Positions 15,309 to 17,536 of a stretch of 64,000 nucleotides of DNA are shown here, one piece after another. How positions within the stretch are numbered: position 1 is the first letter of the stretch; every line of letters begins with the position of its first letter. The notes under the pieces were generated by a model that had not been told where the DNA came from, searched no databases, and saw only the letters and a list, made by a program, of their open reading frames with translations. Origin of the DNA: Geothrix sp. Its GTDB lineage: Bacteria > Acidobacteriota > Holophagae > Holophagales > Holophagaceae. A program made the position numbers and the translations under genes. Where the stretch lies: positions 989,905-1,053,904 of the forward strand of contig NZ_JAHRYQ010000002.1 of NCBI RefSeq assembly GCF_020622065.1. The letters run 5' to 3'.

Positions 15309-15700
15309 GGGGGTGACCGGTTTCGACAGGTCGTGATCCGGGTGTCCGGTGCAGGCGGGGGTTGGACGGCTGGCCCCCTCATCAAGCCGCCCACATCAAA
15401 CTGCCAACGATAACTTCGAACTGGCTCTCGCTGCCTAGGGCAACCTAGGCTCCGAGCGAGTACTCGCGATCTCTGGGTAGCGGGCTCGTTAAACCTCCGA
15501 AAGGGTGGCTTCGGCCTGCCGGACGGAGGCACCAGATAGGCTGCCGCGACGCCCCCTGACGGCGGCCGAAATCCAGGAGGCAAGCGTCCCGAGCGGCTCG
15601 TCCGTTCCCCGCCGGGAGGCTCCAAGAACGGACCAAGCCTGTGGATGAACCGCCAACCGGCATGTCTTGGACGTGGGTTCGACTCCCACCACCTCCACCA
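15309..15700 (+). ncRNA. ssrA: tmRNA (SsrA), one-piece
   Basis: Transfer-messenger RNA that rescues stalled ribosomes. The 5' end GGGGGTGACCGGTTTCGACAGG-type sequence (first base 15309) pairs with CACCTCC near the 3' end, giving a seven-base-pair acceptor stem with one G-U. The T-arm GTGGGTTCGACTCCCAC and encoded CCA finish at 15700. The tag frame resumes at GCC 15403 and ends with TAG at 15436-15438, encoding ANDNFELALAA, which ends in the ClpXP-type degron LAA. The 392-nt length is usual. SsrA genes are known integration targets, and foreign-looking DNA follows directly. Confidence 0.97.
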
Positions 15701-15747
15701 AACAAAGGGACCCGTGAGGGTCCCTTTGTTTGGTGGAGGTGGTGGGA
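15684..15747 (+). terminator. 30-bp perfect inverted repeat / ssrA terminator
   Basis: Bases 15684-15713 and 15718-15747 are perfect reverse complements with a GTGA loop. The inner part (AAAGGGACCC stem) is a normal hairpin terminator. The outer part is an inverted copy of the last 17 bases of the mature tmRNA, so the 3' end including CCA would be sequestered in the primary transcript. Confidence 0.75.
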
Positions 15748-15810
15748 AGCATAAGATCGCCAAATGGACACCTTATGCTTCCTAATCTGGTACGGACATT
15801 TTACGCTTCC
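15745..15810. repeat. Transposon-end-like short repeats
   Basis: Three copies of a GGAAGCRTAARRTgtCC-type repeat lie at 15745-15763 (plus), 15764-15782 (minus) and 15792-15810 (minus). The two minus copies are direct repeats 28 bases apart; the first is inverted to them. Multiple short repeats of this kind form transposase binding ends in some IS families. No transposase gene is present, so this is at most a remnant. I cannot name the family. Confidence 0.4.
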
Positions 15811-15862: not shown

Positions 15863-15986
15863 CTCTTACGAGTGAAGCGAACCGGCCCCGCCTGCACCGA
15901 GGCGCGGAGCGGAGCCGAGAAAGCGAGAAGCTGAGAGAGAACGGAAGGCAATGCAGGCGGGGTCCGAGTTGAGCTGAGGGTTAGAC
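15863..15986 (-). other. Integron attC-like recombination site
   Basis: Read on the minus strand, 17 bases after the ester cyclase stop comes GTCTAAC (15986-15980), an exact RYYYAAC R'' box. A 5-base spacer and an L''-like GCTCAACTCGGA follow. The imperfect palindrome is anchored by CCCCGCCTGCA (15886-15896) and its exact complement (15952-15962). The far R' end reads GTAAGAG rather than GTTRRRY, two mismatches, so that side has decayed. The total of about 124 bases is within the attC size range. Confidence 0.6.
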
Positions 15987-16002
15987 GCCACGAGAACGAC
16001 AA

Positions 16003-16410
16003 TCAAGCTTTCGAAATTTGGGCAATGGCCCCGTAAATATCGGCACTTCCCCAGTGTTCAATGTATTTACCATCTTTCACATGCACGATGTCGGTTACTT
16101 GTATGAGGATTCGTCTGCCAGTCTTGGCATGACCAAAGAACGGCCCGGAATGTGTACCTTCGATGGTTTTTCGAGTGGCAACCTTACCGTTTTCTTCAAG
16201 CTGATCATGAATCAAAACTTTGATATCTGTGAAAGCTTGGTGAAGGACATTGGTGAAGAATGCTGCAAATCCATCTGGTCCTTTTGAGACCCCAGGCGGT
16301 GCTGAATGGTTAATGAATTCTGGTGAGACGAGATCGGAGAAGGCAACCATATCGAGGTTTTCGATGACTTCGTGATTGAACCTTTTGACGACTGACTTGT
16401 TCTTACTCAT
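16003..16410 (-). CDS. SnoaL-like ester cyclase family protein (cassette gene)
   Basis: A 135-residue NTF2-fold protein. MSKNKSVVKRFNHEVI, LVSPEFINHSAPPG, DGFAAFF, and the C-terminal ILIQVTDIVHVKDGKYIEHWG follow the SnoaL-like polyketide/ester cyclase pattern with its His/Asp-lined cavity. Substrates are not predictable. Base composition differs from the surroundings: 28 of 60 bases are G or C in 16021-16080, whereas neighbours are mostly above 60 percent by eye. I start at the ATG at 16410; an upstream frame to 16482 crosses the putative cassette boundary. Confidence 0.82.
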   Translation of the reverse strand: MSKNKSVVKRFNHEVIENLDMVAFSDLVSPEFINHSAPPGVSKGPDGFAAFFTNVLHQAFTDIKVLIHDQLEENGKVATRKTIEGTHSGPFFGHAKTGRRILIQVTDIVHVKDGKYIEHWGSADIYGAIAQISKA

Positions 16411-16438
16411 GTGAATGCTCCAATGGGGGGCAGCTAAC

Positions 16439-16840
16439 TTCAAATTGGACGGCGGGGACGAAGGTATTCGTAATTCGCCCAATCCGGTTTTGAGGAGAGT
16501 GTAATTACTGATTTTACCGAGAAGGTATTGAACGGGGCATATTGGATACCCAAACCTGAGGTCCGGCAGGACAGGATGAAGTGGCTCAGGATTTCGGAGC
16601 CCGAGTATCAGCGCAAGGTCGGAGCTTCATCAGCTACCAGCAAACGCACCTCGGCAGGTCCACTACCTGGCCCTCCCGCCATTCGCTCACCCCGAAGATC
16701 CGCCGCAATGACGCCACGGCCCTCCGGAGGTCGGCGGCCCTCCCTTTTTCGAAGGAGGAACCGCATGGCCTAGATATCCACCTCCCGCTGTCCCAGGTGT
16801 TGAACGAGGCTGAAGAACCGAGAAGCGTTGAGAGTTACTC
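16439..16840. other. Intergenic region between cassette and kdpE
   Basis: About 400 bases with no supportable gene. The left end is AT-rich and may be the remainder of a second attC or its flank. From about 16580 the composition returns to that of the chromosome. Short open frames here lack ribosome-binding sites and family resemblance. No terminator for kdpE is evident. Confidence 0.35.
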
Positions 16841-17536
16841 CTATTCATCGGTCCGCAGGCGATAGCCAACACCCGGTTCGGTCTGGAGATAGGTCGGTCT
16901 GGATGGATCGACTTCCAGTTTGTGCCGCAGTTGGGTCATGTAGACGCGCAGGTAAAGCGGCTGGGCCGCCGCGACGCCACCCCAAACTTCCTTCAGCAGC
17001 TGCCGCTGGGTGACCACTTTGCCCGCGTGGCGGATCAGGGTCGTGAAGAGTTTGTATTCCAAGGGCGTCAGGTGGATCTCCTCTCCCGCGACCCATACTT
17101 GGCGCTTGCCCAAGTCGACGCGCCAACGATCCAGCAGGAAGACCGGATCGGACTGGGAGCTCGGATCCGCGTGGCGCAGGGCCACCCGGACCCGGGCCAG
17201 CAATTCGCTGGTGCCGAATGGCTTGGTGAGGTAATCATCCGCACCCAGGTCCAGGGCCTTCACTTTGTCGGCCTCCTGACCCCGGGCCGAAATGACGATC
17301 ACGGGAATCCGACTCCACTCCCGCAAGCGGGCCAGCACTTCCAGCCCATCCAGGTCGGGTAGGCCGAGGTCCAGCAGGATGACCTGGGGCTGGTGCTGGG
17401 CCGTCTGTTCAAGCCCCTCCCTGGCCGTACCGGCCTCAAGGTAACGGTAGCCACCGCCCTCAAGCGCGACCCGGAGGAAACGCCGCATCTGAGGTTCGTC
17501 CTCCACGAGCAGGACAAGCGGGGCCGGAGCGGTCAT
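16841..17536 (-). CDS. kdpE: KdpE, OmpR-family response regulator
   Basis: A 231-residue response regulator. The receiver domain carries acidic pair EDE near residue 12, phospho-acceptor Asp56 in VILLDLGLPDLDG, and KPF lysine. The C-terminal winged helix has HLTPLEYKLFTTLIRHAGKVVT and ends EPGVGYRL, typical of OmpR/PhoB and KdpE. The ATG at 17536 overlaps the kdpD stop (ATGA), ruling out the longer upstream frame. It activates the kdp operon when phosphorylated by KdpD under potassium limitation or osmotic stress. Confidence 0.95.
   Translation of the reverse strand: MTAPAPLVLLVEDEPQMRRFLRVALEGGGYRYLEAGTAREGLEQTAQHQPQVILLDLGLPDLDGLEVLARLREWSRIPVIVISARGQEADKVKALDLGADDYLTKPFGTSELLARVRVALRHADPSSQSDPVFLLDRWRVDLGKRQVWVAGEEIHLTPLEYKLFTTLIRHAGKVVTQRQLLKEVWGGVAAAQPLYLRVYMTQLRHKLEVDPSRPTYLQTEPGVGYRLRTDE

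Follow-up and report, generated by a model that had tools for sequence, protein, structure and literature searches.

In the genome of a Geothrix species (RefSeq assembly GCF_020622065.1), we analyzed a window of 64,000 nucleotides and found beside ssrA what is, in all likelihood, a one-cassette array without an intI gene, in which a SnoaL cassette from the chromosomal integron of Geothrix lies on an ectopic copy of the attI site belonging to that integron. We favor this reading over an off-target insertion of the attG type, because the exact attI core occurred only at the heads of attC arrays and because the homology to attI extended over ~120 nt. The features of the locus are as follows (a slash marks a crossover point or cassette boundary).

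15309 to 15700, plus strand: ssrA (tmRNA), intact (ARAGORN; Rfam RF00023, 96.8 bits)
15738 to 15810, no strand assigned: solo Tn7-like transposon end, with TnsB-like sites at 15745 (minus), 15766 (plus) and 15794 (plus)
15863 to 15986, minus strand: attC site, a covariance model hit, with R'' GTCTAAC, L'' GCTCAAC and degraded L' and R'
15869 to 16437, minus strand: integron gene cassette of 569 bp, strict boundaries G/TTAGCT to the attC G
16003 to 16410, minus strand: SnoaL-like ester cyclase gene, 135 aa (Pfam PF07366, 111.6 bits, E 2.9e-32)
16434 to 16559, minus strand: putative ectopic attI copy, core CCGTCCAATTTGAAG/TTAG with the crossover G at 16438, plus an upstream module
16652 to 16795, minus strand: transposase remnant, putatively IS3-type by its ORF layout and sequence, between the attI copy and kdpE, 80% identical to the orfA/orfB junction of a transposase in another genome (G003)

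The cassette and its attC site

To score the attC site independently of itself, we used a covariance model (R1) made from 40 other attC sites, located elsewhere in the genome and in G. oryzisoli, with the window site and its orthologue omitted. The structure of the model comprised canonical R and L boxes and three extrahelical bases; 93.8% of the cells in the alignment of the 40 sequences were paired, and the last L-box pair showed compensatory change in 11 of them. The window site scored 131.8 bits (E 3.2e-29 for the whole genome and 6.2e-31 for the window), far above noise, and the next-best match in the window had an E value of 0.5. The site was also up to 93% identical to other attC sites in the genome. 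Together with a cassette-bounded counterpart in an array of G. oryzisoli, described below, this score bears out the original prediction, which had been made from the letters of the window and had called the interval a true integron cassette.

The anatomy is that of an attC, with R'', L'', L' and R' boxes and a foldable stem. The R'' box (15986-15980) is followed by the 5-base spacer CCTCA, the L'' box and a long imperfect stem, an arrangement that had been recognized correctly except for the distance from the ester cyclase stop to R'', which is 16 bases and not 17. The predicted GTTAGCT-like upstream boundary was found as G/TTAGCT at 16438/16437. The cassette begins with a regular G/TT boundary on the left, and its right junction in the window is G/TA. 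The other two boxes are degraded, in keeping with the relic that had been suspected: L' reads GGTTCGC against the genus consensus GGTTAGC, and R' reads GTAAGAG against GTTAGGC, with loss of the GTT triplet. When the recombining strand was folded, the R box was unpaired in the window attC and paired in five of five array attCs from this genome. However, the R box was open as well in the minimum-energy fold of the orthologous attC in the G. oryzisoli array, so the fold alone does not prove that the window site is locked. Judged from its boxes, the cassette is probably locked, because R' lacks the GTT triplet and L' is changed. The triplet at the right junction, GTA, falls outside GNT, the minimal junction motif for IntI1 (PMC10127599). 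Decay of a normal R' is a likelier origin of this junction than insertion into a GTA target, although the degraded R' could instead represent the original target sequence.

The ester cyclase gene has a GC content of 45%, compared with 66% for the window, and is present as a single copy in the genome. The block 15865-16438 recurs as a cassette within an attC array of G. oryzisoli SG189 (contig NZ_JAKZLB010000002; G006:C2:708526-709100) at 88% DNA identity, and the alignment ends at the cassette boundaries on both sides. The two encoded proteins are 94% identical, and the comparison with the array copy gave dN 0.03 and dS 0.71 (dN/dS ~0.04, NG86), which together indicate purifying selection on the gene. 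Beyond Geothrix, the nearest relatives of the ester cyclase in our genome scan came from Bacteroidota (42-51%).

attI-like cores at the heads of arrays

The attC model had 92 matches in the genome (E up to 0.01), nearly all of them in four arrays (contigs C1 and C2):

C2:621-638k
C1:846-861k
C1:1576-1596k
C2:1194-1197k

An intact IntI of 336 aa (463 bits, with the cut-off at 265) is encoded directly upstream of the first of these, 385 kb from the window cassette. The search for intI elsewhere in the genome that accompanied the original prediction was thus successful, and the description of the locus as a cassette without its integron has to be abandoned, since an intact intI and ~90 attC sites reside in the same genome. 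Three isolated weak attC-like matches (G000:C1:1562475, 59 bits; C2:402191, 44 bits; C1:1114569, 34 bits) are possible older remnants.

Copies of the sequence at 16434-16559 lie upstream of intI in three relatives; in this genome they also head two intI-less arrays, and several species have them within arrays. The homology and position of 16434-16559 fit a putative ectopic attI copy. The attI core, CCGTCCAATTYRAAGTTAG, was searched across the whole genome with up to 3 mismatches allowed. This yielded four matches in 3.35 Mb, all exact and each heading an attC array: C2:620759, which is the only one beside intI, C1:845582, C1:1576404 and the window. The fourth array is headed by a weaker core, in which 4 of 22 positions are mismatched. 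Thus, intI is missing from four of the five loci where attC arrays begin, and an attI-like core heads every one of these four, exact in three and weaker in one. Over 123-126 nt, the window copy is 78-80% identical to the head of the 1576k array and to attI-ended array units; the intI-adjacent attI of this genome resembles it mainly in the last 24 nt. In 25 genomes, a pattern related to the attI core had 14 matches, compared with 2 for a reversed control. An attC was present in the flank fetched for 12 of the 14; the remaining two were at or near contig ends, and only four of the 14 were beside intI. At three further sites in the genus (L094, L099 and L100), an attI-core-like sequence adjoins an attC but has no upstream attI homology; these may represent off-target insertions or, alternatively, attI copies that have eroded.

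The window locus is no complete integron, as intI does not adjoin the attI copy. Neither intI nor a clear remnant of it was found at 16400-16860, from the attI copy to kdpE (best tblastn E 0.1), and the locus holds one attC, in agreement with the predicted solitary cassette without a local integrase. The upstream module of the attI copy contains a TAAAAT box with a poorer partner hexamer than in the other copies, and it may represent a weak Pc; a sigma-70 promoter scan for Pc returned no site in the window copy. Expression of the cassette gene, if any, would probably come from this module or from kdpE read-through.

The attI-ended units mentioned above include a recurrent unit of 216 bp with fixed ends, which is closed by an attI-like sequence in place of an attC and lies in the main array at G000:C2:622069-622284 (L114). 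With this copy as the query, seven copies matched all 216 positions at 87-100% identity in five species (G000, G005, G006, G014 and G017). In G005 and G014, one copy starts at the crossover base in the attI next to intI, the point at which a cassette would be inserted. The unit has no evident ORF, and most of the copies read have a TAAAAT box 18 bases past TTGCC-type hexamers. Tentatively, and with less than even confidence, we propose that the unit, with its possible promoter, is a mobile docking site, which would move like a cassette and, when placed elsewhere, would seed arrays served in trans by the single chromosomal IntI; the ssrA locus would then be a stunted outpost.

The surroundings of ssrA

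The solo Tn7-like end lies 38 nt past the tmRNA and 52 bp from the attC. The order and spacing (21 and 28) of its TnsB-like sites match those of a transposon end beside ssrA in G022. Genes for a TnsA-TnsB fusion, TnsC and TniQ lie just downstream of ssrA in that genome (L065, C64) and in G007 (L054, C26), and similar Tn7-like ends occur beside ssrA in three more Geothrix species (L050, L057 and L059). The window itself contains no tns genes, and a second Tn7-like end was not found; a TnsAB homologue (52%) is encoded elsewhere in the genome, at C1:1465967. A trio of tyrosine recombinases was rejected as the origin of the hairpins next to ssrA, which are Tn7-like ends. A survey of Tn7 targets (PMC10293859) does not mention the tmRNA as an attachment site.

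Both flanks of the cassette were searched in 26 genomes for an empty site, and none was found. The ssrA-side flank had a single match, of 45 nt, to the transposon end in G010, and the other flank matched only attI copies and transposase; no full-length match to either flank was present in the genomes searched. With flanks that are not common to the other genomes searched, no relative offered a clean empty site. The relatives searched lack the gene beside ssrA, as the original prediction had envisaged, but they do not provide the uninterrupted interval that was to be compared.

In G018 (C16, L062 2058-2181), an attC with the orientation of the window site lies at a contig end, 123 bp from ssrA. 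Divergent integron-integrase-like genes were seen near ssrA in G019 (C1:166045, L063 10932-12152) and G012 (C7:169430, L058 18437-19402). The encoded proteins are 67-68% identical to the main IntI, and the stretches fetched held no attC near these genes. Given this divergence and the lack of a nearby attC, we did not use them to argue that an ancestral integron stood at ssrA.

Origin of the locus and its meaning

An ordinary vertical gene accompanied by a chance palindrome is scarcely conceivable here. The intact ORF is all that speaks for it, and it is refuted by the attC model E value (3e-29), by the cassette-bounded homology to the G. oryzisoli array and by the absence of the gene beside ssrA in every relative searched. 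For the last reason, the SnoaL gene was also ruled out as a vertical neighbor of ssrA, and no distant relative had the gene in the same place with conserved flanks. The off-target insertion raised by the original prediction would have IntI use an unrelated site, AAG/TAA beside ssrA, that resembles attI by chance. A cassette that stands alone, the non-consensus right junction GTAAGAG and the core-only sites of the genus (L094, L099 and L100) would fit such an event. However, attI-module homology in the left flank for ~120 nt goes far past a recognition core, and the GTA junction misfits the IntI1 motif (PMC10127599), so that we consider an attG-type event very unlikely and the left junction an attI copy.

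If the cassette does stand on an ectopic attI copy, its insertion there would be due to IntI supplied in trans or to a local intI that no longer exists. The 3' junction of the cassette would then have decayed (R' from GTTAGGC to GTAAGAG; A to C in L'), and because of this decay IntI would now be poor at excising the cassette, leaving the gene fixed. As to how attI came to ssrA, an old second integron may have lost its intI, the 216-bp attI-ended unit may have moved in, or the Tn7-like element, of which one end is left, may have carried the site. A version of the first of these, in which deletion through IS3 or Tn7-like activity removed intI and every cassette but one from a longer integron or array at ssrA, is a real possibility that nevertheless falls short of being probable. 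The cassette is flanked by an IS3-type remnant and a solo Tn7-like end, the attC near ssrA in G018 has the same orientation, and the genome has multi-cassette, attI-headed arrays that lack intI; on the other hand, no intI remnant persists between the attI copy and kdpE, the G018 array is cut by the contig end, and it would take a coincidence for a deletion to stop exactly at R'. Tn7 is a carrier of class 2 integrons, and the cassette might similarly have arrived as cargo of an ssrA-homing Tn7-like transposon whose transposase genes were later deleted. The position of the solo end between the tmRNA and the attC and the tns-bearing elements at ssrA in G007 and G022 agree with such an arrival, which we nonetheless regard as unlikely: no attC was present in the stretches fetched for the elements that relatives carry at ssrA, the window has no tns genes, and the other end was not found.

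Among known systems, the locus resembles a cassette of a sedentary chromosomal integron or a CALIN in its genus-family attC, its cassette boundaries, its ORF in cassette orientation and its lack of a local intI, with intI elsewhere in the genome. It departs from a CALIN in that its one attC is below the default of IntegronFinder 2, at least two (PMC9024848), and in that it retains an attI copy of its own, a feature that the definition of a CALIN does not include. As described in PMC12444791 and PMC12901181, which cite Loot et al. 2024, attG insertions likewise place cassettes outside an integron, but at non-classical sites, whereas the left junction in the window is an attI homologue over ~120 nt. 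The 216-bp unit is comparable to the Delta-attI-type cassettes of mobile integrons (PMC12901181), which also are closed by attI and not attC; unlike them, it has no evident ORF and carries a possible promoter, it occurs in five species in copies that are 87-100% identical, and related copies head intI-less arrays. Fixed-locus CALINs of Xanthomonas (PMC12444791) similarly comprise several scattered intI-less arrays with one intI platform kept per genome; the available portion of that paper makes no mention of attI copies at array heads.

The records available to our literature search included no integron study on Geothrix, the sole co-mention being of class 1 integrons in sewage; as far as that search showed, this genus of Acidobacteriota (Holophagae) is newly added to the integron literature. 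For specialists, the attI copies at ectopic positions and the attI-ended unit that recurs may be of particular interest. Cassette clusters that lack intI are usually attributed to the decay of an integron or to off-target insertion. The attI-like cores that head the intI-less array starts, four of five in this genome, predict that one integrase can serve several docking sites on the same chromosome.
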